Source: Kordiimonadales bacterium
Lineage (GTDB): Bacteria; Pseudomonadota; Alphaproteobacteria; Sphingomonadales; Kordiimonadaceae
NCBI GenBank assembly: GCA_015485385.1
Contig: WFTS01000068.1
Location: 1 to 38,003, forward strand
Direction of reading: 5' to 3'
DNA length: 38,003 nt
Shown here: positions 26,078 through 37,495 of the stretch, piece after piece
How the letters are laid out: each line of letters opens with the position of its first letter
Position numbering within the stretch: the first letter of the stretch is position 1
The notes under the pieces: generated by a model
Told to the model about the DNA's origin: nothing
What the model saw: only the letters and a program-made list of their open reading frames with translations
The model's database searches: none
Made by a program: the position numbers and the translations under genes

Positions 26078-26752
26078 ATGAAGCCTCAATTCTCAGCCCA
26101 AAAAATCCTATTTGATCTTGATGGTACGCTGGTCGATACTGCGCCAGACTTGCATGCTGCCACCAATTTTACGCTGCGCTCTGTTGGTCGCCCTCCTGTC
26201 TCTTTAGATCATGTCCACCAAATGACCGGCTATGGCGCTCGGCGCTTGATAGAACTGGGCCTTGAAGAAACTGGAGGAACGGCCGGTTTGGATATGGAAG
26301 CGCTGCATCTGACATTCTTGAGCTATTATAGAGATCATATTTGTGATCACTCGGAAATTTTCAGTGGAGGCAAAAAAACTCTTGAAAGCCTGAGCGCTAT
26401 GGGCTTCCAGATGGCTGTCTGCACCAATAAACCACATGCGATGGCGGTTCGGCTTTTAGATAAAATTGGCATAGCTCCTTTTTTCGAAGTGGTAACTGGC
26501 GGTGATAGTTTTGCTTATAAGAAGCCGGATGGGCGACACCTTACGGCAACCAGCTCCATGCTAGATTGTGTCGGCAGTACGATAATGATTGGTGATAGCC
26601 TTCCCGACATCCATGCTGCAAAGGCGGCAAATATGCCTGTTATTGCAGTTGATTTTGGATATTCGGATGTGCCTATAGAAAGCCTAGAGCCAGACCATAT
26701 TATCAGCTGTCTTCCTGATCTGCTCTCTTTAGTAAAGTACGCACATTCCTAA
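26078..26752 (+). CDS. gph: HAD-superfamily phosphatase, phosphoglycolate phosphatase-like
   Basis: 224 residues. HAD motif I is FDLDGTLVDTAPDL (nucleophile and acid Asp), motif II is the T in MAVCTNKPH, motif III the Lys in YKKPDGRHL and motif IV is MIGDSLPDIHAAKAA. The alpha-helical cap (about residues 20-85) is the C1 type found in Gph, which removes phosphate from 2-phosphoglycolate; related specificities cannot be excluded. It is monocistronic on the plus strand. Its last 50 bp overlap the convergent nucleotidyltransferase gene. Confidence 0.85.
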   Translation: MKPQFSAQKILFDLDGTLVDTAPDLHAATNFTLRSVGRPPVSLDHVHQMTGYGARRLIELGLEETGGTAGLDMEALHLTFLSYYRDHICDHSEIFSGGKKTLESLSAMGFQMAVCTNKPHAMAVRLLDKIGIAPFFEVVTGGDSFAYKKPDGRHLTATSSMLDCVGSTIMIGDSLPDIHAAKAANMPVIAVDFGYSDVPIESLEPDHIISCLPDLLSLVKYAHS

Positions 26753-27749
26753 TGGCCTTGCGCAACAAATGTGCAAGAAGTAAATGCCACGGCATTCTTA
26801 AATAATGACTTCTTATCAATAAGATTGTTTTTGCACTATACGCCTTATTAATATGCATTAATTTCTGCTTCAAAGCATAGCGTACGATCAGCCCTGAAGG
26901 CTTTGCGTTAGAGGCTTTTAGTAAGGTATCAGCCACCGTGTCATCTAAAACGTCCGCTAATATCCATAGCGCGGTAGCAACGGGTTGCGTTGCTCCAACG
27001 TCTGCGGCCCGAATATTTATGTTTTTTTGTTCCTCCGTGGATAGATCACGAAGGAGATAATATAATTCAACGAGCGTGCGTGCGGGAGTATCAAAAGAAC
27101 CGTCTGCAAAGCTATGAACTGCTGAATGAATGAACCGGTCCACTGGCGCTAAAACTTTCAGCTTCCCACCAGCCAGTGGCATGGCCGCATCCAGCATAAG
27201 GTTAGATTGCAGCTTGATCCTAGAGGTTCTTGGTAGCAAATGGTGATGTACATCCACGACTGTTTGGCGTTTATTGTGCCGCAGCGGCGGAAGCTCGTGC
27301 ATATATTTTCGGTAATATGCGATGTCATAATCATTATTTGTGGTTTCATCAAACTCCCAGCCCGCAGCTCTTAATAAGCCTTCAGTTTGATCTAGCTGTT
27401 CTTCACTGACCATTATATCAATATCGGAAACACGGCGGCCTTTAGCCGCCTTTGAGCCCACAGCGACATATGCGCCGCCCTTTAGCAAAATAGGTGCAAT
27501 GCCAGACCCTAATAGCGCCCTAGTTATCCTATCTTTCTCAAACCGAAGCATCCGGTGATCAAACCCGGTTCGCAACAATCCATTTTCCAATACTTCCTTT
27601 AGTTTTCCTTCAGTTTTACCTTCCCAAGTAACAGCCATTTGTCCCAAAACATGGTGCGTATCGGCAAATTCAATCATTTTTGCTCGCTCGGCAATATTTT
27701 CGGGCATGGGCGCTTGGCCAATGATGGTTTTTAGCCAATCCCTAATCAT
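26703..27749 (-). CDS. Nucleotidyltransferase-fold protein of the HPr-rel-A-type cassette
   Basis: 348 residues. The NTP_transf_5-like nucleotidyltransferase core has PILLKGGAYVAVG (about 86-98) and GRRVSDIDIMV (104-114), with the metal-binding pair D109 and D111, then a third acidic site likely in VVDVHHHLLP. The rest is helical. Such proteins occur in exosortase A loci and, in lasso-peptide clusters, next to HPr-kinase-like genes where they extend phosphorylation of the precursor. Its ATG overlaps the kinase gene stop by 4 bp (ATGA), so the two are probably made together. The substrate is unknown. The 3' end overlaps gph by 50 bp on the opposite strand. Confidence 0.82.
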   Translation of the reverse strand: MIRDWLKTIIGQAPMPENIAERAKMIEFADTHHVLGQMAVTWEGKTEGKLKEVLENGLLRTGFDHRMLRFEKDRITRALLGSGIAPILLKGGAYVAVGSKAAKGRRVSDIDIMVSEEQLDQTEGLLRAAGWEFDETTNNDYDIAYYRKYMHELPPLRHNKRQTVVDVHHHLLPRTSRIKLQSNLMLDAAMPLAGGKLKVLAPVDRFIHSAVHSFADGSFDTPARTLVELYYLLRDLSTEEQKNINIRAADVGATQPVATALWILADVLDDTVADTLLKASNAKPSGLIVRYALKQKLMHINKAYSAKTILLIRSHYLRMPWHLLLAHLLRKAIRNVRTLLKRADQEDS

Positions 27750-28681
27750 AGCCCCGCCTTTGCGGCTAAATCACGAGTTATTTCTAGACTATCCTGTGTA
27801 TTTCCGTATGTGATTTCAAACGTCTGTGCCCCGGCAACCATCTTTATCAATGCCTCAAAAGAAGCAGTCCCCAAAAGGTGATAATTGGTTGAGCTTGGTA
27901 TTAATTTCATAATCGTTTCTGATTTGGACAGTTCCCGAACCGAGGGGGGAGTATCCTCTTGAAAAACGGGGAATAAGATCAATTTCGCAGCCATAGGAGT
28001 TTTGGAAAGCTGAATGTCGCTCGGACGCACCCGGCGGTAGGCAATATCCCCTTTTGGCGTGCCACCAAATGTTTTTGTTAGCCATTTTTCCCCTGTAAAC
28101 TCTCGAACTATATCGATTGATTTCTCTTTTAACGACACTGGTCTTGGGTATGGATGCAACATGCCGGTTTCCATATCAAGCAAACCAAATTCATCTGAAA
28201 AAAGCCGATAGCCTTCAACCATTAATGCGGATGCAAGTGTGCTTTTACCTCCACCCGAGTGAGCACTGATTAAAATTGCACCTCTCTCATTGCCTACCAC
28301 AGCTGAGTGAAACGTTGTGAAACGACAACATTTCAGTGCGATCGCTAAATTAAGCCCCATTTCAAAAGCAAGTGGAGACAAATACGGCGGCAAAGGAACA
28401 GCCGGCACTATAAAGCCTGGATCAGCGATCACTTGTCTACGAATATATTTACGGATGATATTCGGGGGCCGGACGTTAATGGCAACATCCGTTACATCAC
28501 CCAATTTAAGGCGTACAGGCGCATCCCGGTAAGCATCAAATAGGAAATCAACAATATCTGCCTCACGGCCTTCTAGCCGCATACTGAAAGGCCCGAGCTC
28601 CATCTCAAGAGACCCAGACCTTAAAGCAACGTCTATATCTTCCCTATGGTAATCGCCTAACCGCTGAAACTCATTTTTCAT
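27746..28681 (-). CDS. HPr-kinase-related kinase (HprK-related kinase A family)
   Basis: 311 residues. The C-terminal half is an HprK-like kinase: His125 in FTTFHSAVVG, the P-loop HSGGGKST (141-148), and the acidic pair in LFSDEFGLLD (160-169). The N-terminal 110 residues do not resemble the HprK N-terminal domain and are specific to this family. True HprK phosphorylates Ser46 of HPr; this relative lacks the HPr-recognition extension and is coupled by ATGA overlaps to a PqqD-like gene before it and a nucleotidyltransferase gene after it, which points to a peptide or protein substrate from its own cluster. That substrate is inferred, not shown. Confidence 0.88.
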   Translation of the reverse strand: MKNEFQRLGDYHREDIDVALRSGSLEMELGPFSMRLEGREADIVDFLFDAYRDAPVRLKLGDVTDVAINVRPPNIIRKYIRRQVIADPGFIVPAVPLPPYLSPLAFEMGLNLAIALKCCRFTTFHSAVVGNERGAILISAHSGGGKSTLASALMVEGYRLFSDEFGLLDMETGMLHPYPRPVSLKEKSIDIVREFTGEKWLTKTFGGTPKGDIAYRRVRPSDIQLSKTPMAAKLILFPVFQEDTPPSVRELSKSETIMKLIPSSTNYHLLGTASFEALIKMVAGAQTFEITYGNTQDSLEITRDLAAKAGL

Positions 28682-28986
28682 GCTTTTGTCTCGACGGGGA
28701 TTACCAAGCCAAGTTCGTCCAATTCAAGAATTGTTCTTTTGACCAAAGACGCAGGGCAGTCATGTTCAGTCATTTGAATTTCATCTAATATTTTTGGAAA
28801 TGCCGTTGCAAAATTTTCATCCCCTTTGGCTAATATTTTAAGAGTAGCGGCAGAGAGAAAATTCAAAATATGAGTGTCCCCAGAAATCTTATGGAAGGCA
28901 ATAGTAACGGATTCAGATGGTTGCAATAGCATTTTGCTAATGTCGGCGGTCCAGGTGGTTTGTTCTGAATAAGGGCCAGCAGACAT
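28678..28986 (-). CDS. PqqD-family peptide chaperone (RiPP recognition element-like)
   Basis: 102 residues with AGGA 7 bp before the ATG. The pattern is that of PqqD/RRE proteins: beta-rich start (ESVTIAFHKISGDTHILNFLS), then helices with AATLKILAKGDENF, then PASLVKRTILELDELGLVIPV at the C-terminus. PqqD-like domains bind leader peptides and hand them to modifying enzymes. It matches the small protein of the HPr-rel-A system. The stop overlaps the kinase start (ATGA), and the Tat-exported protein gene precedes it by 61 bp. A partner of this chaperone could be that protein or a short peptide not visible here. Confidence 0.8.
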   Translation of the reverse strand: MSAGPYSEQTTWTADISKMLLQPSESVTIAFHKISGDTHILNFLSAATLKILAKGDENFATAFPKILDEIQMTEHDCPASLVKRTILELDELGLVIPVETKA

Positions 28987-29047
28987 GCAAACATCCTAGT
29001 GGCCATTATATTGGCCGAACTGAGAGATAGTTCAGACTATACGGAGA

Positions 29048-29779
29048 TTAATGACCCATGTAATTCAAAATGGAAATCACACAAGACACGCCGGGCCAAT
29101 GCCCGTTAACCCCGTTTTCATCAATATATTTAAGAGAAAGCTCAAGATAGAGGCCGTCATCACCGGATAAATTCCAATCGCCACCCTGCGTTACATAATC
29201 ACCGGGAGAAATGATTTGGCTTCGGCTATATTCGTAAACTGCATAGCCGCACGGAGCATTCGTAATAATACTATGCCCGTGAGAATCTTGTGCATGGCCA
29301 TCGTCATCGCAAGAATGATCATGCCCATCATCTTCACCGCTGCCGGCAAGATAATCATTCATGGCATAAGTGCCATTTTCATCCGTTAAGTGGGATAATA
29401 GATCGTCATGGTCCCCAGAACCACCACTTTCATCACATGTTTCATACTCGCATGCATCCGGGCGATATGAGGCTGACACACTGTCATGAGGAAAAATATA
29501 GGATGCATCATGCTTGAAATTTTTAACATCCTTATCTTTTAAATTTCCAGTTTTCTTATCCGTGCGTAATTTACCGCTGCCAACCCAAGCCGCACCAGTA
29601 TCATCAACCAAAATTTTAAATTTGCTCGGGATTGTAATGGTACAGCGCAACTGAGAAATCACTGCTTCTTGCGCACTCGCCCGCAAAGTAAGCACCATTG
29701 GCATGCCTGCGGCACCCAGTTTTAAAAGATCTCGTCTCTGCTCAAGAAACAAATCAGTTTTTTTGTTTTTATCCGTCAT
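29048..29779 (-). CDS. Tat-exported Asp/His/Cys-rich protein of unknown function
   Basis: 243 residues; AGGTGA lies 9 bp before the ATG. The start carries a twin-arginine signal, QRRDLLKLG (14-22), then a hydrophobic stretch MPMVLTL and a likely cleavage site after ASA (34-36). The mature part has six cysteines (46, 110, 115, 157, 177, 233). An Asp/Glu/His-rich segment runs from 149 to 170, with His at 153, 155, 162, 167 and 169, which suggests metal binding. Strand-like stretches include CTITIPSKFKILVDD and LYLELSLKYID. No PEP-CTERM tail or other known domain is seen. As first gene of the chaperone-kinase-nucleotidyltransferase cassette it is the best candidate substrate. I do not recognise the family. 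Confidence 0.75.
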   Translation of the reverse strand: MTDKNKKTDLFLEQRRDLLKLGAAGMPMVLTLRASAQEAVISQLRCTITIPSKFKILVDDTGAAWVGSGKLRTDKKTGNLKDKDVKNFKHDASYIFPHDSVSASYRPDACEYETCDESGGSGDHDDLLSHLTDENGTYAMNDYLAGSGEDDGHDHSCDDDGHAQDSHGHSIITNAPCGYAVYEYSRSQIISPGDYVTQGGDWNLSGDDGLYLELSLKYIDENGVNGHWPGVSCVISILNYMGH

Positions 29780-29886: not shown

Positions 29887-31779
29887 TTACAGTGAGAGCC
29901 CTAAATTGCCAAGGGATCGCTCTAGACACAATAACGACCATAATGTCGTATGATGATCTCTAGCTTCCCGTATATGTTCATCTACCAAGCTTCGAATTCC
30001 GCTGCGTGAAATCAACCCAGTATCAAGAAGTGCCTCACTTTTCTCTAGCTTATTCAATTCCGGCACTAGTTCGTTTCGCAACCAATTTCCGATGGGAACA
30101 TCAAAGCCACGCTTAGGTCTGTAGAGTATATCATCTGGCAAAATACCGCGAAGTGCATTTTTGAAAACAGCCTTTCCTTGTCCTTCAACAATACGGGTTT
30201 CATGTGGCAACCGCATGGCGTACTCAACAAATTTATGATCCAAGATAGGCACTCTCACTTCCAATGAATGTGCCATACTAGTGCGATCAACTTTGGTTAG
30301 TATGTCCCCGGGTAAATATGTCTTCAGGTCTATATATTGCACCATCGACAGTGCATCGACCCCTTTTACTTTATCACCTAATTCCTTAAAGCGTTCATGT
30401 GGGTGATATCCAGATAGTGCTTTCTTCATTTTGGAAGTATGCAGCCGGTACCGATCTCGGTCAGGCGTTTTGCTAACAGTATGGCAATATGCTTCTGCTG
30501 ACGAACGCCCAAGGGCCTCGAATGTAGATTTTGCTCTTAAAAATTGCGGAGCTCGATCCAGCTTAGGGTACAAAGCAGCAAGCGGCTTGAATATAGGGCG
30601 GCGAATTCCGAGAGGCAGCACCCCCCTAAGATGTTCTTCAAGCATATGAAACCGGTGACGACGATAGCCAGCAAACAGCTCGTCTCCGCCATCACCAGAT
30701 AAACACACTTTCACTTTTTCTCTCGCTAAACCACATACACGGTAAGTTGGTAGAGCTGATAAATCAGAAAAAGGCTCATCAAATACTGTAGCCATACGGT
30801 CCAATAAAAAACCGTCGTTGGCAGACGCTAACCTTAACCTGTGCCGTGTGCCAAAATGATCTGCAGCCAATTGTGCATAGCCGCTCTCGTCAAATTCAGG
30901 ATCTTCTGAGCCGATTGCGCATGTTTCCACTGGGGCATTACTGTTTTTACTCATTAAAGCAACGACCGCACTACTATCAACGCCGCCAGAAAGAAATGCC
31001 CCCAGCGGCACATCCGCAATCATCCGCATATGAACGGCATCTTCAAGGCGTTCAACAAGTTCGGTTTGATCTGCATATGCATTCGCGTCGCGCTGCTCTA
31101 GGTCTGGCTCCCAATAGTTTGTTTCAGATAAATCAGGCGAACCCTGACGCTTCACCAGTATGCAAGCAGGTGAGAGCTTACTTACTCCGGCAACAATAGA
31201 TTTTGGATCAGGCACATACCCAAGTGTCAGGAAATCTTCGAGGGCGTCCACACGCAATTTTCGCATGACACGTTTGTGCTTCAGGATTGCCTTTAATTCA
31301 GAGGCGAATAAAAATGTCCCATCAGGCAACAAACAATAATAAAGGGGCTTGATTCCCAATCTATCTCGCGCAAGAAATAGCTCTTGGCTGCGGTTGTCCC
31401 ATATCGCAAATGCAAACATTCCGCGTAACCGTGTGACACATGCCTGCCCCCATTCCAAATAAGCCTCAAGCAAAACTTCAGTGTCGGATTGCGTTCGAAA
31501 TTGACGCCCCAAAGCTTCGAGTTCCCGCCTTAAGTGGCGGAAATTATAAATTTCACCATTAAAGCTTAGCACCACTTGTCGGTCCGCACAGTACATAGGC
31601 TGCGAACCGCCTTCGATATCAATGATGCTTAATCGCCGGTGCCCCAGAGCCACAGTTTGGCCAAAATAAAATCCATCACCATCTGGTCCACGGTGACCAA
31701 TTTCATTCGTCATTGCGCGCAGCAAGCCTTGATCCAGCTCTGTGCCGGCAGGAACCATAATGCCCGTTATTCCACACAC
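29887..31779 (-). CDS. XrtA/PEP-CTERM-associated amidotransferase (asparagine synthase-like)
   Basis: 630 residues. The N-terminal class II glutaminase begins MCGITGIM (nucleophile Cys2) with GHRGPDGDGF and SFNGEIYNFRHLRREL. The C-terminal synthetase has the ATP loop SGGVDSS (264-270), SGDGGDELFAGYRRH and LPGDILTKVDRTSMAHSLEVR. The length fits the exosortase A amidotransferase family, thought to modify sugars or other parts of the exopolysaccharide rather than make free asparagine. The GTG start overlaps the xrtA stop by 13 bp. It is the last gene of the XrtA operon and also lies directly upstream of the PqqD-kinase cassette. Confidence 0.9.
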   Translation of the reverse strand: MCGITGIMVPAGTELDQGLLRAMTNEIGHRGPDGDGFYFGQTVALGHRRLSIIDIEGGSQPMYCADRQVVLSFNGEIYNFRHLRRELEALGRQFRTQSDTEVLLEAYLEWGQACVTRLRGMFAFAIWDNRSQELFLARDRLGIKPLYYCLLPDGTFLFASELKAILKHKRVMRKLRVDALEDFLTLGYVPDPKSIVAGVSKLSPACILVKRQGSPDLSETNYWEPDLEQRDANAYADQTELVERLEDAVHMRMIADVPLGAFLSGGVDSSAVVALMSKNSNAPVETCAIGSEDPEFDESGYAQLAADHFGTRHRLRLASANDGFLLDRMATVFDEPFSDLSALPTYRVCGLAREKVKVCLSGDGGDELFAGYRRHRFHMLEEHLRGVLPLGIRRPIFKPLAALYPKLDRAPQFLRAKSTFEALGRSSAEAYCHTVSKTPDRDRYRLHTSKMKKALSGYHPHERFKELGDKVKGVDALSMVQYIDLKTYLPGDILTKVDRTSMAHSLEVRVPILDHKFVEYAMRLPHETRIVEGQGKAVFKNALRGILPDDILYRPKRGFDVPIGNWLRNELVPELNKLEKSEALLDTGLISRSGIRSLVDEHIREARDHHTTLWSLLCLERSLGNLGLSL

Positions 31780-33305
31780 AAATTATGCCCCCTATCTGAA
31801 CCTTGCAATTCTGACCATAAGACCCTATCCAGCGGAAATGTCGATAAGAATTTTTCTAATTTATCAGGTGATCGAGCAAATCCACTAGTTTCGGGCATAG
31901 ACAAGGCAAAAACAGCACCCGCAGATGCCCCATAAACAAGACGCTCGACAGCGCTTTCAATCTTCACCCATGTTTCAGAAACCAAAGCTTTTCCATTTAG
32001 AAAATACCCCACATAGACCACGCGGCGTTGATTGTTTTTCCAATAGACTTCCCTCTTCAGCTTCCAGCCAGACTGTTCGATAACTTTTGACCCTATTCCT
32101 GGCAAGAGATCCCAGCCAGACCCTCCTGGCATATTTCCAGTTTGAATAAGGCGTCGCTCACCTCGTTGCGGACAGTATAGCGCCGCTGACATTAAAATTG
32201 TATCGCCGCCAGAACGGTATTTATATGTAAACTGATTGTCTGCGCCGTGCCATTGAGGGCCCTGCCCTATATTTTGGTAATCAATAGCGCGGATATCACA
32301 GTTTTCACATAGTGGTTCCTGTGCAGTGGTGAAAGAAGCCCCCACGGGGGTCTCAACTGGCGCCAAGGCTAAGGCCAGTCCGGGGAAGAAAACTGTCAGA
32401 ATGAGCACAAAAATAGTGGCGCCAGAGAAATTGCCCTTAAAGTTATCCGCCTTACTCTGTTCGGTCCGGTCTTTGGTTTCCTCATCTACAGCATCAGAAA
32501 ATTGGTAAGCAACCAAGATTAAAACAATAAGAATAAAGGACAAAAACCCCCAACCATAAACAATATGGTCAATACCCTTTGCAAAAGAGGCATCTGTCTG
32601 TTCCGCGACCAGTAAGATACCAAGAACTCGTATTGCATTGGCAATGATTGGCAGCAGAGCCGAGACTATGACAATAATTATTCGTCGCGCCCAGCTGCGA
32701 TAAACAAGGTGCGCGAGCAAAACACCCAATACCACGCTAGTGAAAAAGAATTTCACGCCCGCACACGCACGAGCAACTTCAAACACTCCACTTGGGATCG
32801 TTATCAAAACGCCCTCAGCAGAAACGGGGACACCAAACATTGAAAGTAAGAAGATTACAATCTCGGCAGTATATGTTTGCATAACGGGGATTAGATTTTC
32901 CCCTATTGGAATAGTTAGAAACAAAAATAACATTGGAAATAAAATACTACGGTAAAATCGCCACCCTAGCGTAACAACCACAATACCCTGTATACCTAGA
33001 ACCAAAGCAATATGTTCTCCAAGGCGCACCTCTGCAGCAGCAGCTAAAAGCCACAAAACAGAGGCGGCAATAACCAGAAAAACCCCTGCGGGTGAGTATT
33101 TTAGGGCTGACAGGTTTAAGTTGTCCCGTCGAGACCATATTAACCCTGCCGATATAAGAGGTACCATCCATCCATGGGAATAGCTGTCAACAGTCCATAC
33201 TATTTCTGCTAAATGGCGAACAGTTCCGGACCAGATCACAAGTAAGGAAACAATTCCAACTGCGCAGAAAAGAAAATGTAAATATGTCTGGTTCCTAGCT
33301 GTCAT
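31767..33305 (-). CDS. xrtA: Exosortase A with fused EpsI-like domain
   Basis: 512 residues from ATG 33305; the frame is open eight codons earlier, overlapping the glycosyltransferase gene more. The N-terminal part is a polytopic membrane protease/transpeptidase with the exosortase triad: Cys181 (EVARACAGVKF), Arg226 (IIANAIRVLGI) and His247 (GIDHIVYGW). After about residue 300 and one more membrane helix comes a periplasmic EpsI/DUF3485-like domain, with YWKNNQRRVVYVGYFLNGK. Exosortase A cuts PEP-CTERM proteins and hands them to an exopolysaccharide-linked export route. No PEP-CTERM substrate gene is seen in this window. Confidence 0.93.
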   Translation of the reverse strand: MTARNQTYLHFLFCAVGIVSLLVIWSGTVRHLAEIVWTVDSYSHGWMVPLISAGLIWSRRDNLNLSALKYSPAGVFLVIAASVLWLLAAAAEVRLGEHIALVLGIQGIVVVTLGWRFYRSILFPMLFLFLTIPIGENLIPVMQTYTAEIVIFLLSMFGVPVSAEGVLITIPSGVFEVARACAGVKFFFTSVVLGVLLAHLVYRSWARRIIIVIVSALLPIIANAIRVLGILLVAEQTDASFAKGIDHIVYGWGFLSFILIVLILVAYQFSDAVDEETKDRTEQSKADNFKGNFSGATIFVLILTVFFPGLALALAPVETPVGASFTTAQEPLCENCDIRAIDYQNIGQGPQWHGADNQFTYKYRSGGDTILMSAALYCPQRGERRLIQTGNMPGGSGWDLLPGIGSKVIEQSGWKLKREVYWKNNQRRVVYVGYFLNGKALVSETWVKIESAVERLVYGASAGAVFALSMPETSGFARSPDKLEKFLSTFPLDRVLWSELQGSDRGHNLCVE

Positions 33306-34497
33306 CCCGGCTCTCTGAAAGAAGGGCATTTAACTGGGCGTATGATCTCTCCCACGAAAAATTCTGTTTTACATAGGATCTGGCACTTTTGCCAAGCCTC
33401 TCGCCAATGGTATGGTCTTCTAATAAATTACATATGGCGTCACAAAATTGCGGGCCAGTATCAGCGATACATATATGTATGTTAGCCTGAGCATTAATGC
33501 CTTCATTCGCCAGCTGTGTAGCCACCACAGGTTTCGCCATGGACATGGCTTCAAGAACTTTATTTTGAATACCGCGCGCAGTTTGTAACGGTGCAACAAC
33601 AATTTGCGCACCCGAAATAGTAGCGGCCATATCTTCCACATACCCCAACACACAAACACCCGTTTGCAAGGCCAGTTTTCTTGACCGCGATGTTATAGGC
33701 CCCCCGGCAATCAAAAATTCTGCACCGGGATTTTTCAATAAAACATGTGGCCAAACATTATTGCAAAACCATTCTGCAGCCTCAATGTTGGGGTGGTAAT
33801 CCATCGCCCCAGTGAATATAATTTTCTGCCCTCGAGACTTGAAAGAATATTTCTTCGGATCGAAAAAGTCAGTATCAACGCCGTTTGCTATTCCAATAAT
33901 TTTATCCTTGAGGGCAGGATTTAAAGTTTGAAACAAGCAAGCTTCGTCATTGCTTACAAATATTGTTTTAAAGGCACGCGTGGCCACATGTGTCTCAAAC
34001 GCAGCAAGTTTTCTTGCCTCACGCTTATATAGCCACGACAAAGGCCACCTCGCAGCTTTTGCGTAAGAGCCCCACTTTTGAGAGTCTACATCAACAAGAT
34101 CTGCGACAACACGAACGTCTGAACGCGCCTCTATCAACGGGGCTGTGGCGGCAGAAAATAAAAAAACTAGATCGATTTGTTGGTTTGAAATCAAATCATT
34201 ACAGTATTTTTTTAGCTTTCTAGGGGGATAGGCACATTCGGTTAAAGACTTGCCGTTTAACAGTCCGAGAAGGCTACGAACTTTTTGGACCAAAGGATTA
34301 ACCTGCTTATAGCAAACACTTACAAATTGGTCTTTCAGTTTGGGCACATACTGTAAATCATTCGGATTATCGACATAAAAACCAAGATGCACGGTATGGT
34401 CATCAGACAAGCGGGAAAGAAAATTCCAAGACCTAATTTTATCGCCTTTATTTGGCGGATATGGGATGCGGTGAGATAGAAAAAGAATATTTGCCAT
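33295..34497 (-). CDS. XrtA-associated glycosyltransferase (TIGR03087-like, GT-B fold)
   Basis: 400 residues. The start NILFLSHRIPYPPNKGDKIR is the hallmark of this exosortase A-linked sugar transferase family. The C-terminal Rossmann half has IIFTGAMDYHPNIEAAEWF, EFLIAGGP and the donor-binding VVAPLQTARGIQNKVLEAMS, with its conserved Glu. It should add a sugar to a lipid-linked exopolysaccharide unit on the cytoplasmic face; the sugar is unknown. It starts 4 bp after the FemAB-like gene stop and overlaps xrtA by 11 bp. Confidence 0.93.
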   Translation of the reverse strand: MANILFLSHRIPYPPNKGDKIRSWNFLSRLSDDHTVHLGFYVDNPNDLQYVPKLKDQFVSVCYKQVNPLVQKVRSLLGLLNGKSLTECAYPPRKLKKYCNDLISNQQIDLVFLFSAATAPLIEARSDVRVVADLVDVDSQKWGSYAKAARWPLSWLYKREARKLAAFETHVATRAFKTIFVSNDEACLFQTLNPALKDKIIGIANGVDTDFFDPKKYSFKSRGQKIIFTGAMDYHPNIEAAEWFCNNVWPHVLLKNPGAEFLIAGGPITSRSRKLALQTGVCVLGYVEDMAATISGAQIVVAPLQTARGIQNKVLEAMSMAKPVVATQLANEGINAQANIHICIADTGPQFCDAICNLLEDHTIGERLGKSARSYVKQNFSWERSYAQLNALLSESRDDS

Positions 34498-34501
34498 ATT
34501 G

Positions 34502-35551
34502 TTACCCTAGGTGCCGGGCAAGATGAGGGCCAATCATATTGGCAATTGGTAAAGGCAGTTTCTTCCACAGATTAGTCATCAACCGATATTTAGCACTATT
34601 AGGGTTCAGGTTGCTTTTAACGGCACCGTCTGCCAATCGGCTCTGATATGCTAAAATTTTAGGCTCAAAGCCCCAATTTTTCTTAAACTTATAGGGCCCG
34701 GTGCCAATTTTACTGCGGCCAAAGTCAAAGCCTGTTTTACCCCGTTCTGCCGCGCGTAGCATCAATTGATAGTACATAAAATCATGTGCACCATATTTGC
34801 GCGCGCTCAAATTTCCGCCCGCATAATATGGTAACACCCAATCCCCGTGATAAAAGCTCATCAAGCTTGCAACGGCAGCGCCCTCAGGGGTGTAAATTAC
34901 TTGAATGTCCACATCATCACCGAATTCGGCCATAAACTGTGAAAAAAGCCCCTTGGGAAATACCGGCGTTCCAAGGTTGCGAACACTTTCCGCATATAAT
35001 TTGTAAAAACCGTCTAAATTCTTTTCCCAAGAACACGTAAGATCATGTTTCAAGCTCTTCCGTACTACAGCACGTTGCTTGCGCGGAATATCTAACAGAA
35101 TGTCCTCAGGCGTATTTTTCAGTGATTTGCGAAAGGTCGCGGACGTTGCGGCTTCCGTCTGCCAATTCACAGACCTAGCTTGGCTAACATCCTCGGTTCG
35201 GTATTCCAGAGAGGCTGCGCCCAATAATGTTGCTTGTTGCCACGCAAAATCATCTAAAGCCATCTTGATGTCATCAGTGTCGGCCAGAGGTCCTCCGTAT
35301 ACCGCAAACAACGTCGAAACCAACGCACTTCCAAATAAAAGGCTTTTCCTGTGTGCTAGTGGCAATATGCCAACAATGTTTCCAGTATCATCCTCTTCAG
35401 CGAGCAGGAAATAGCTCTTTTGCTTGCTACCGTTTTCTATAACGCTGCGCCAACCAGCACGGTGACAAAATGTACCTTTTGGATGCGCCAATACATAATG
35501 ATCCCATGCAACTGCATCTGAAGGTTTCATATGCCGAACGGTCACTGCCAT
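34502..35551 (-). CDS. FemAB-like XrtA-associated protein (GNAT fold)
   Basis: 349 residues. It is a FemAB/GNAT-type double acyltransferase: the N-terminus has WDHYVLAHPKGTFCHRAGWR, the middle LLDIPRKQRAVVRKSLKH, and the C-terminal half DFMYYQLMLRAAERGKTGFDFGRSK, then GPYKFKKNWGFEP, as in the exosortase A-associated FemAB family. Relatives use aminoacyl-tRNA or acyl donors; here a modification of the polysaccharide or its lipid carrier is likely, but unproven. The ATG overlaps the deacetylase stop by one base (TAATG). Confidence 0.9.
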   Translation of the reverse strand: MAVTVRHMKPSDAVAWDHYVLAHPKGTFCHRAGWRSVIENGSKQKSYFLLAEEDDTGNIVGILPLAHRKSLLFGSALVSTLFAVYGGPLADTDDIKMALDDFAWQQATLLGAASLEYRTEDVSQARSVNWQTEAATSATFRKSLKNTPEDILLDIPRKQRAVVRKSLKHDLTCSWEKNLDGFYKLYAESVRNLGTPVFPKGLFSQFMAEFGDDVDIQVIYTPEGAAVASLMSFYHGDWVLPYYAGGNLSARKYGAHDFMYYQLMLRAAERGKTGFDFGRSKIGTGPYKFKKNWGFEPKILAYQSRLADGAVKSNLNPNSAKYRLMTNLWKKLPLPIANMIGPHLARHLG

Positions 35552-36471
35552 TATTTGGCCGATCTATTGGGTTGGATGATTGTAGCAAAAATATCTTTCA
35601 TGCACCCCCAAGCAAATGCACGTGATATTTTATGCAGCTTTTTTGGCAGAGCCTTTTGTCCCGTATAATGACGGAACCGAGATAATAATGGCGCATTTTT
35701 CACATGCGGCTGACCAAGGTCCATCTCCCATGGGTGCATATATAAAATAGCTGGTGACTGTGCTTGCCTCGCTCCGCGCGCGATCATATACTCCGACAGA
35801 AAATAGGGAAGCAACCTAAAATACCCCCCACCCGATGCAGGCATCCTCAACAACGGAAAATCACAAACTGTCATAGGAATTTCCACGAAACCATTATCTG
35901 GGATTGGATAAAATGGCCTCCGAGGCGCTGATCTAGCGCCGTAATGATCTGTTTTAACAGGATAAAGGCTTGAAGAGTATTTGAAGCCAGCATCTGCCAG
36001 TTCTTCATAAGCCCACCAAACATCCGGTGTAAGAGAAAAACTAGGCGCACGGTATCCAATAACACTGCAATTAGTAGCGCTCTCCAGTAAATCCTTAGCG
36101 CGGCGAATATCAGCTCGAAATTCAGGCCGGCTCATGGTGAATATCCGCCCATGATCCATACCGTGACAGGCAATTTCATGTCCTGCCGCAGAGATTGCCT
36201 GTATAATATTGGGGTAACGTTCAGCAACGGAGCCTAACGCAAAGAAGGTTCCTTTAATTTCAAGCCGATGTAATAAATCTAAAACAGCAGATGTTTGTGT
36301 TTCAACACGGCTTTCTAAACCTGACCAGTTAGATTTATCAAAGGTGGTTTCAAATGCACCTACTTGAAACCACTCTTCAACATCTACAGTGAAGGCAAAT
36401 TTATTTTGGTCCCTCATTAACGATATATCAGCGGTGTGAAACTTCTGCTTTACAAAGAAATCAGCCGTCAT
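35551..36471 (-). CDS. XrtA-system polysaccharide deacetylase (NodB/DUF3473)
   Basis: 306 residues from ATG 36471, which overlaps the ATPase stop by 11 bp; a later ATG (36417, MRDQNKFAFTVDVEEW) is an alternative. The NodB domain has the catalytic/metal residues D30 (FTVDVEEWFQV) and the metal pair H103 and H107 (EIACHGMDHGR), then IGYRAPSFSLTPDVWWAY. The C-terminal part has ILYMHPWEMDLGQPH. It should remove acetyl groups from N-acetylated sugars of the exopolysaccharide. No signal peptide is seen, which is usual in this family. Confidence 0.92.
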   Translation of the reverse strand: MTADFFVKQKFHTADISLMRDQNKFAFTVDVEEWFQVGAFETTFDKSNWSGLESRVETQTSAVLDLLHRLEIKGTFFALGSVAERYPNIIQAISAAGHEIACHGMDHGRIFTMSRPEFRADIRRAKDLLESATNCSVIGYRAPSFSLTPDVWWAYEELADAGFKYSSSLYPVKTDHYGARSAPRRPFYPIPDNGFVEIPMTVCDFPLLRMPASGGGYFRLLPYFLSEYMIARGARQAQSPAILYMHPWEMDLGQPHVKNAPLLSRFRHYTGQKALPKKLHKISRAFAWGCMKDIFATIIQPNRSAK

Positions 36472-37495
36472 CGCCTTTTGATCCACCCGCTGCCAGCTGT
36501 GCCATGATGCTGGTCAATTTTTGAAGTGTCTCATCCTGCGATTTCATCATATCCTCAAGCTTACCAAGGCGGCCTTCCATTTCGTCATTGGGAGCCTTTG
36601 TTTCCAAAGGAATGCTTGCATCATTAGCTGACGTAGCGTGTTGGGCCATCGGCCTTGCAGAACTGGTTGAAACGACAGGGCGCGTATCGCTTGACATATC
36701 AGCAACAACCGCATTGATAACTTCTTCATCAATCGTGTGAATTTCTTCCAATGATCCATAAAGCAAAACACGGGAACAAAGCGTGTTTAACCGGCGCGGC
36801 ACTCCAGCACTATGTTCATAAATGGCCTCTACCGCCTCAGCAGTGAAGCATGGATCATTGTCCCAGCCAACAAGCTTAAGACGGTGTTCGATATAAAATG
36901 CCAGCTCTTCACGTTCCATAGGCTCAAGATGGTGTGTCGCTATTACACGCTGGCGCAGTTGCTCAAGTTCGGGCGCTACAAAAATACGCTCGCGGAATTC
37001 GGGCTGCCCCACTAAAAAGCTTTGAATCAGAGCTTTGTCGCCTTCTTGGAAGTTGGACAACATCCGCATTTCTTCCAAGGCCGCATTGGATAAATTTTGT
37101 GCCTCATCGACAACCAGCAGGGCACGGCGTCCCATTTTAAACTGCTCGCGCAGATGTTGCTCTAGGCGCGATAACAATTGACCCTTATCTTCAGCCTGGG
37201 CATCCAAGCCAAATGCGGCCACAACGCTTCGTAGAAGGTCTTCCGCACTTAACTGCGTAGATACGATCATCGCGGCGATAAATTCATTACGGTCTAAAGT
37301 ATCAAATAAGTGCCGAACCAAAGTGGTTTTACCAGTGCCGATATCACCAGTGACAATGATAAAACCCTCACCTTGGTTGAGCCCATAAGTAAGGTAAGCC
37401 ATCGCCTTTTTATGCGTGCGAGAGCTATAATAAAACCTTGGATCAGGAGTTAACTGAAACGGACGACCTTGTAGATTGTAAAAGCTCTCATACAT
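36461..37495 (-). CDS. XrtA-associated ATPase (ExeA/GspA-like AAA)
   Basis: 344 residues. The start MYESFYNLQGRPFQLTPDPRF is the common opening of ExeA-type AAA proteins. Walker A is GDIGTGKT (50-57), Walker B ALLVVDEAQ (125-133), and sensor-like segments follow in FLVGQPEF and GVPRRLNTLCSRVLL. The C-terminal 80 residues are low in complexity and end in a short coiled-coil (LGKLEDMMKSQDETLQKLTSIM) and a Gly-rich tail. In exosortase A loci this ATPase lies among polysaccharide polymerisation and export genes and is thought to drive chain-length control or assembly. It starts 6 bp after the outer-membrane protein gene. Confidence 0.92.
   Translation of the reverse strand: MYESFYNLQGRPFQLTPDPRFYYSSRTHKKAMAYLTYGLNQGEGFIIVTGDIGTGKTTLVRHLFDTLDRNEFIAAMIVSTQLSAEDLLRSVVAAFGLDAQAEDKGQLLSRLEQHLREQFKMGRRALLVVDEAQNLSNAALEEMRMLSNFQEGDKALIQSFLVGQPEFRERIFVAPELEQLRQRVIATHHLEPMEREELAFYIEHRLKLVGWDNDPCFTAEAVEAIYEHSAGVPRRLNTLCSRVLLYGSLEEIHTIDEEVINAVVADMSSDTRPVVSTSSARPMAQHATSANDASIPLETKAPNDEMEGRLGKLEDMMKSQDETLQKLTSIMAQLAAGGSKGDDG

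Follow-up and report, generated by a model that had tools for sequence, protein, structure and literature searches.

Previous work on lasso peptides of the paeninodin and pseudomycoidin type, in the portion of that report available to us, describes HprK-like kinases, PadeK and PsmK, that phosphorylate the C-terminal serine of lasso precursors, and a further protein, PsmN, that is required for the addition of hexoses to the phosphorylated C-terminal serine (PMC9266682). For the linear polyphosphorylated peptide (LPP) system of Bacillota, the accessible part of its description reports that the LPP kinase, LppK, phosphorylates Ser3 of a linear peptide, that the leader is removed by a signal-peptidase-like enzyme and that the LPP genes are set in polysaccharide loci (PMC13381572). 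Here we describe a four-gene cassette in a stretch of 38,003 nucleotides (nt) from a Kordiimonadales bacterium (assembly GCA_015485385.1, contig WFTS01000068.1; hereafter the window), in which a gene for a protein with a twin-arginine translocation (Tat) signal is followed by genes for a PqqD-like adaptor, an HprK-related kinase and a nucleotidyltransferase. An initial annotation of the window likened this cassette to a lasso-peptide phosphorylation module acting on the Tat protein or on an unseen short peptide.

By analogy with these systems, we think it probable, though far from assured, that the cassette is a Tat-coupled tagging module resembling those of ribosomally synthesized and post-translationally modified peptides (RiPPs), with the Tat signal as leader and the Tat protein as substrate, a serine of which is phosphorylated and then capped. 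The PqqD-like adaptor would act as a RiPP recognition element (RRE), binding the N-terminal signal of the newly made Tat protein and recruiting the kinase, which would, in the cytoplasm, phosphorylate the conserved serine of a C-terminal [ST]-C-hydrophobic-x-S motif. A nucleotide or sugar would then be placed on the phosphate as a cap by the nucleotidyltransferase, the Tat pathway would export the protein in its tagged and folded state, and an ordinary signal peptidase would cut off the signal that doubles as leader. The product would have its role at the envelope, in many cases alongside the exosortase-A/extracellular polysaccharide system. If true, HprK-type peptide phosphorylation extends from short peptides to Tat-exported proteins.

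Recurrence of the Tat gene beside the adaptor and kinase genes

All four open reading frames (ORFs) of the initial annotation are present, on the minus strand throughout (Table 1; coordinates are those of the 38,003-nt stretch). As that annotation had it, the last three are joined by 4-bp ATGA overlaps, at 28678-28681 (adaptor/kinase) and 27746-27749 (kinase/transferase); 61 bp separate the Tat gene from the PqqD-like gene, so the Tat gene stands in line with the other three without overlapping them. The kinase scores 228.6 bits with TIGR04352, above the cut-off of 200. The adaptor has a single family match, to TIGR04353, at 33.2 bits, just below the cut-off of 35; the same family is matched at E<=0.01 by 23/23 aligned adaptors, that of the window included. 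The transferase scores 119.7 bits with PF14907 (cut-off 31.2); for the Tat protein, neither Pfam nor NCBIfam yields a family at E<=1. With its kinase above the cut-off and its adaptor best matched by the partner family, the cassette belongs to the HPr-rel-A system (TIGR04352 plus TIGR04353), the label proposed for it at the outset.

The prediction that a Tat homologue lies upstream of kinase-PqqD pairs was put to a test set beforehand. One rule served for all sets: a Tat-like ORF had to end 150-850 bp before the kinase domain, and the C-terminal motif was scored as [ST]-C-hydrophobic-x-S. Set A consisted of the 80 best of 577 confirmed relatives, all of them named loci; 6 had <900 bp upstream, which left 74 assessable. 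Set B held 34 loci from the 53 kinase-bearing genomes among 397 Pseudomonadota genomes, 4 of them added after a first look, and set C held 45 loci of the organism's own class, order and family. A Tat candidate with the Cys motif was found at 63 of the 74 loci of set A (Ala in place of Cys, 4; Tat only, 3; none, 4), at 21 of the 34 of set B (0, 10 and 3, respectively) and at 40 of the 45 of set C (0, 2 and 3). Sixteen loci of sets A and B, all with the motif, duplicate contigs already in C or A; their removal leaves 137 distinct assessable loci, whose counts ignore kinship among those that remain. A Tat candidate is present at 127 of them, and it carries the Cys motif at 108, the Ala form at 4 and neither at 15; the other 10 have none. 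The outcome that would have refuted the prediction, lack of the Tat gene at most kinase-PqqD pairs, was not observed. With duplicates included, a Tat candidate is found at 143/153 and the Cys motif at 124/153. By contrast, in 921 control regions upstream of other ORFs of >=200 amino acids (aa), on both strands of the loci of sets A and C, a Tat-like ORF occurred in 116 (3 with the Ala form) and the Cys motif in none. An upstream scan under a somewhat different rule gave 64/80 against 0/873.

No short precursor was consistently present by eye in the upstream ORF listings, which leave out ORFs under 40-60 aa. Given the Tat ORF upstream at 127/137 loci, we take the Tat protein, in preference to an unseen short peptide, as the leading candidate for the substrate and very probably the cognate one. 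The same gene set recurs in very different bacteria, often within polysaccharide gene clusters. In one genome (G688) there are two kinase cassettes (L230, L231); both kinases exceed the TIGR04352 cut-off, and a separate Tat-like gene precedes each.

The Tat gene and the kinase also share their distribution in the organism's own family. In a sample of 29 family genomes, its own included, 26 contain the Tat protein (E<=1.1e-8) together with the kinase (E<=1e-50) and the other three (G309, G311 and G316) lack both; the order Tat-adaptor-kinase-transferase is kept in all 26 loci, the window among them. This arrangement is therefore not a matter of chance. In the order outside the family, 8/30 genomes match the Tat protein weakly (E 0.003 to 1), and in five of these eight (G318, G319, G324, G329 and G333) such a match lies directly upstream of a kinase. 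In one genome (G293), the kinase match at C7:102198-103094 is reported with one TAA, and the kinase ORF ends 9 bp before the transferase start, with no overlap.

Family genomes also carry Tat paralogues without a cassette (L085, L088-L094), and the four that were aligned (L085, L088, L090 and L091) keep a C-terminal SCxxS. In L088, L090 and L094 the unlinked paralogue lies just 3' of a gene with a homologue in 6 other loci; the two genes upstream of it in L088 encode a YCII-domain protein and a DUF6596/sigma-70 region protein. The genome of the window has no second Tat-type gene detectable with the profile of the 32-member Tat alignment (A2).

Could the Tat protein be just a genetic partner, reader or carrier, while the cassette modifies an unlinked peptide or a protein of the polysaccharide locus? 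A minority of loci have no Tat neighbour and the cassette often lies inside exosortase-A loci with many other proteins, but no other short ORF is, by eye, consistently found in the upstream listings (ORFs under 40-60 aa left out), the presence pattern of Tat gene and kinase agrees in 29/29 family genomes, and the four aligned unlinked copies retain the same ends as the linked ones. We consider this explanation improbable.

Two conserved ends of the Tat protein

The window Tat protein has the twin-arginine signal RRDLLKLGAAG and its genome encodes TatC (239.8 bits), so on sequence grounds it qualifies as a Tat substrate and its export is predicted. Arg16 and Pro27 in the signal and Ser232, Cys233 and Ser236 near the C-terminus are invariant among the 32 Tat proteins of alignment A2, with a variable insertion lying between the two conserved halves; the insertion is rich in Asp and His and might bind metal. 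Tat signals are normally removed by the general signal peptidase, so the missing leader protease is no strong objection to the signal acting as leader.

Conservation of the two ends was assessed in 95 hand-curated Tat proteins, that of the window and 94 others. Clustering of the mature parts without their last 22 residues (BLAST E<1e-3) gave 29 clusters, the largest with 30, 20 and 8 members, and one representative was taken per cluster. A signal pattern, P-x(1-2)-h-[TS]-h, is present in 28/29 representatives (shuffled sequences: mean 2.9, max 9) and the C-terminal motif in 20/29 (shuffled: mean 0.19, max 2); across all 95 proteins the two are found in 69 and 85, respectively. Among the 90 Tat proteins with [ST][CA]xxS, the first residue is Ser (52) or Thr (38) and the second Cys (85) or Ala (5); a hydrophobic or aromatic residue occupies the third position in 89 and follows the motif Ser in 88. 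The tail beyond that Ser is 2-25 residues long. The motif Ser, retained where Cys is replaced by Ala, is the acceptor favoured by these alignments, and in the majority class of Tat proteins the C-terminal Ser is probably the residue that is phosphorylated.

A second class of cassette-linked Tat proteins (L191, L193, L194, L206, L215 and L226-L230) has no C-terminal motif; by eye, several members have SPGxW..WP-like and LNA-like segments. An N-terminal C-x-x-S in this minority class was likewise noticed by eye and is not claimed.

Conservation of the C-terminal C-x-x-S might have a structural or redox basis, for instance a disulfide with a Cys near the mature N-terminus, with the acceptor elsewhere. 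Cys46 and Cys233 are both invariant in the 32 aligned proteins, and in the structure model of the window protein (mean predicted local distance difference test (pLDDT) score 76.8) the motif begins a confident last helix. Some proteins, however, have Ala instead of the Cys yet keep the Ser three positions further on, which argues against this account; we hold it to be rather unlikely. Cys-Cys pairing as evidence for a disulfide was dropped, the counts being too loose. The fold of the mature Tat protein had nothing usable among PDB structures (best match E 0.87). When Tat proteins of other loci were scanned, no Pfam or NCBIfam match exceeded a cut-off, and no NCBIfam model matched any of 11 Tat proteins scanned (that of the window and 10 others), so that no substrate family was found in NCBIfam.

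A further possibility is that the PqqD-like protein is mainly a proofreading chaperone for the Tat signal, the kinase and transferase regulating release of the Tat protein without leaving a lasting tag. Dedicated Tat chaperones exist for other substrates, and the signal here is conserved beyond its twin arginines. Signal proofreading, however, needs no C-terminal motif common to otherwise unrelated proteins, and the combination of RRE, kinase and transferase is one known from peptide modification; we judge such a licensing role unlikely.

Adaptor, kinase and transferase

A model of the adaptor, built on a 23-sequence alignment (mean pLDDT 92.0), was compared with PDB structures by Foldseek. 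Structures of an RRE with bound leader (5v1u, 5v1v and 6jx3) came at ranks 1, 2 and 4, with probability 1.00 and E values of 0.006-0.02, none below 0.001; the leader-bound RREs among the best matches are TbiB1 and TfuB1. The matches that follow include PqqD and enzymes of cyanobactin and microcin systems, though Rickettsia methyltransferases are among them too. In a search with a profile of the adaptors, TfuB1 ranked first (E 0.015). As modelled, the adaptor looks like a winged-helix protein of the kind seen in leader-bound lasso RREs.

Several residues expected of the enzymes are kept. His125, the P-loop G143-x-G145-K146-S147-T148, Asp163 and Glu164 are invariant in 22 aligned kinases, and the kinase profile matches HPr kinase structures (best E 0.00015), with the His, the P-loop and the first Asp aligning. 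In 20 aligned transferases D109-x-D111 and Lys90 are invariant; transfer of a sugar or nucleotide onto the phosphate by this enzyme is a tentative assignment. In set A an adaptor was detected beside 77/80 kinases and an adjacent transferase at 68 of the 75 loci with room for one. The parallel drawn in the initial annotation with a lasso-type phosphorylation module thus survives in the His, Lys and first Asp of the kinase, the D-x-D of the transferase and the RRE-like model of the adaptor; the part of it that rested on an asparagine-synthase homologue does not.

Several findings weigh against Tat-coupled tagging as outlined above. The Tat leader lacks the [Y/W]xxP motif seen in the leaders of lasso peptides and LPP; in the window it reads AAGMPMVL, with Ala rather than Tyr or Trp three residues before the Pro. 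The leader Pro pattern is found in only 69/95 proteins; in the large sphingomonad cluster most members have no such Pro. A Glu (the invariant Glu164) takes the place of the second catalytic Asp of HPr kinase, and 7/75 loci of set A with room have no detected adjacent transferase. Deletion of lppN, in the available part of the LPP report, changed nothing detectable in that system (PMC13381572). At four of the 137 distinct loci the motif Cys is replaced by Ala, and 15/137 have Tat-like candidates without the motif, mainly in set B; several of these share a different domain by eye, so a single acceptor rule does not fit all. Ten of the 137 have no Tat candidate by the rule. At L137, L186 and L098 a Tat ORF does exist by eye. 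L097, from genome G342, has no Tat gene near the cassette; elsewhere in that genome (L221) an ORF with a weak Tat-signal match (E 0.006) ends in the motif. L150 has just a short frame with a Tat-like start, and L207 and L212, scored as misses, have no Tat ORF assigned. L033 and L167 have no Tat gene nearby, and the kinase at L208 (wider stretch L222) stands without a Tat gene and with no adaptor or transferase detected beside it.

In the literature covered, which left subscription papers and preprints outside its scope, no description of this association of Tat protein, adaptor and kinase was found, and a key-term check of the accessible text of the RRE-finder literature met no mention of HPr, kinase or twin-arginine. 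The analysis names a likely substrate, mostly with a likely acceptor residue, for a kinase/adaptor pair that was named by NCBI and whose target has no match in the literature covered.

Exosortase-A setting and comparison with known systems

The asparagine-synthase-like gene adjoining the cassette had been taken as a parallel to lasso clusters. A lasso-peptide or related RiPP cluster with this gene as its cyclase is suggested by the likeness of kinase, adaptor and transferase to lasso tailoring genes and by the homologue next to them. The gene, however, scores 854.7 bits with TIGR03108, the XrtA/PEP-CTERM system amidotransferase, against 249.6 bits with the lasso cyclase model (cut-off 525), which rules out its identity as a lasso cyclase; it continues the exosortase-A locus beside it. 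An amidotransferase match better than 1e-10 is absent from the stretches covered in 12/13 relatives in the order outside the family (L096-L108, some of them short stretches), and no B2-type protease was noticed, though none was searched for. A lasso cluster is thus very improbable, and the amidotransferase gene is a sign of a polysaccharide system, not of lasso cyclization.

Exosortase A and the kinase occur together. Among the 397 Pseudomonadota genomes, 38 have exosortase A (over cut-off), 53 the kinase and 27 both; the kinase is thus present in 27/38 genomes with exosortase A and in 26/359 others (Fisher p 1e-18, ignoring descent), and by genus in 17/26 with and 12/196 without (p 8e-12, again ignoring descent). 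Of 31 larger stretches hand-picked from these genomes (L222-L252), 13 carry, close by and on the same strand, XrtA-locus genes besides the amidotransferase; in 10 of the 13 the kinase of the cassette has a TIGR03087-type glycosyltransferase on one side and a window-like amidotransferase on the other. Five of the remainder have a window-like amidotransferase only and 13 have neither. XrtA-locus genes lie within about 8 kb in 15/80 loci of set A, 9 of them Kordiimonas relatives. The frequent association of the cassette with exosortase-A loci thus explains why amidotransferase-like genes recur near it. For the exosortase-A polysaccharide system the cassette is a new and optional companion. A broader proposal, that the cassettes form a widespread Tat-coupled RiPP-like class in which an RRE-bound Tat signal ties C-terminal Ser phosphorylation and capping to folded export and the product links or organises exosortase-A polysaccharide, is speculative and, in our view, somewhat less likely to hold than to fail.

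Table 1. Cassette genes, proposed sites in the Tat protein and neighbouring genes in the window
Feature	Coordinates	Strand	Basis
Tat-signal protein, proposed substrate, 243 aa	29048..29779	-	ORF; 32-member alignment A2; Tat-signal ORF at this place in 127/137 distinct loci
Tat signal, residues 15-36 RRDLLKLGAAGMPMVLTLRASA; proposed RRE-bound leader (putative binding)	29672..29737	-	conservation
Variable Asp/His-rich insertion between two conserved halves of the Tat protein	29255..29452	-	alignment; low-confidence part of model
C-terminal motif S232-C233-V-I-S236, proposed acceptor site, Ser236 favoured	29072..29086	-	conservation and survey
PqqD-like adaptor (RRE-like model), TIGR04353-type, 102 aa	28678..28986	-	profile score; model; PDB matches including lasso RREs with leader
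HprK-related kinase A (TIGR04352), 311 aa	27746..28681	-	profile score; invariant residues in 22 aligned
Nucleotidyltransferase-like protein (PF14907 NTP_transf_5), 348 aa	26703..27749	-	profile score; invariant residues in 20 aligned
XrtA/PEP-CTERM system amidotransferase (asparagine-synthase-like gene); context, outside cassette	29887..31779	-	TIGR03108 854.7 bits, cut-off 816.9
Exosortase A locus: XrtA, TIGR03087 glycosyltransferase, FemAB, polysaccharide deacetylase; recurrent context	31767..36486	-	TIGR03109, TIGR03087, TIGR03019, TIGR03006, each over cut-off

In four loci (L066, L067, L074 and L083) genes on the opposite strand lie between the XrtA amidotransferase and the cassette. Those of L067 encode a response regulator and a histidine kinase (Pfam), and the intervening ORFs of all four resemble pho/pst genes by eye.

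Compared with the phosphorylated lasso peptides paeninodin and pseudomycoidin, as described in the available part of PMC9266682, the cassette has in common an HprK-like kinase, acting there on a C-terminal Ser as is proposed here, a PsmN-type nucleotidyltransferase and a PqqD-like B1 protein. Unlike those clusters it has no adjoining lasso cyclase and no B2 protease that was noticed (none having been searched for), and its Tat-signal protein is of about 90-300 aa, whereas the lasso precursor is short. With HPr-rel-A (TIGR04352/TIGR04353) it shares a kinase over the cut-off and an adaptor whose best family is the matching one. With exosortase A/PEP-CTERM loci it shares neighbouring genes, recurrent linkage and co-occurrence. 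Unlike that of PEP-CTERM substrates, the C-terminus of the Tat protein, PGVSCVISILNYMGH, is not a PEP-CTERM signal: by eye it lacks the features of one (PEP motif, transmembrane stretch and basic tail).

The LPP system of Bacillota (lppA-K-B-S-D-N; PMC13381572, accessible part) has its own SpI-like peptidase and exporter, a precursor of 35-200 aa and a YxxP leader, whereas the cassette leader is a Tat signal without Y/WxxP. In the window, the only place searched, the genes next to the cassette (for a phosphoglycolate-phosphatase-like protein and the XrtA amidotransferase) include neither a SpI-like peptidase nor an exporter. LPP is phosphorylated near the N-terminus of its core, whereas the candidate site of the cassette is C-terminal in most Tat proteins. 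The two have in common a discrete RRE, an HprK-like kinase and a nucleoside triphosphate (NTP) transferase, the lack of a macrolactam cyclase of their own, a polysaccharide-locus setting and, as predicted for the Tat signal, removal of the leader by a signal-peptidase-type enzyme.

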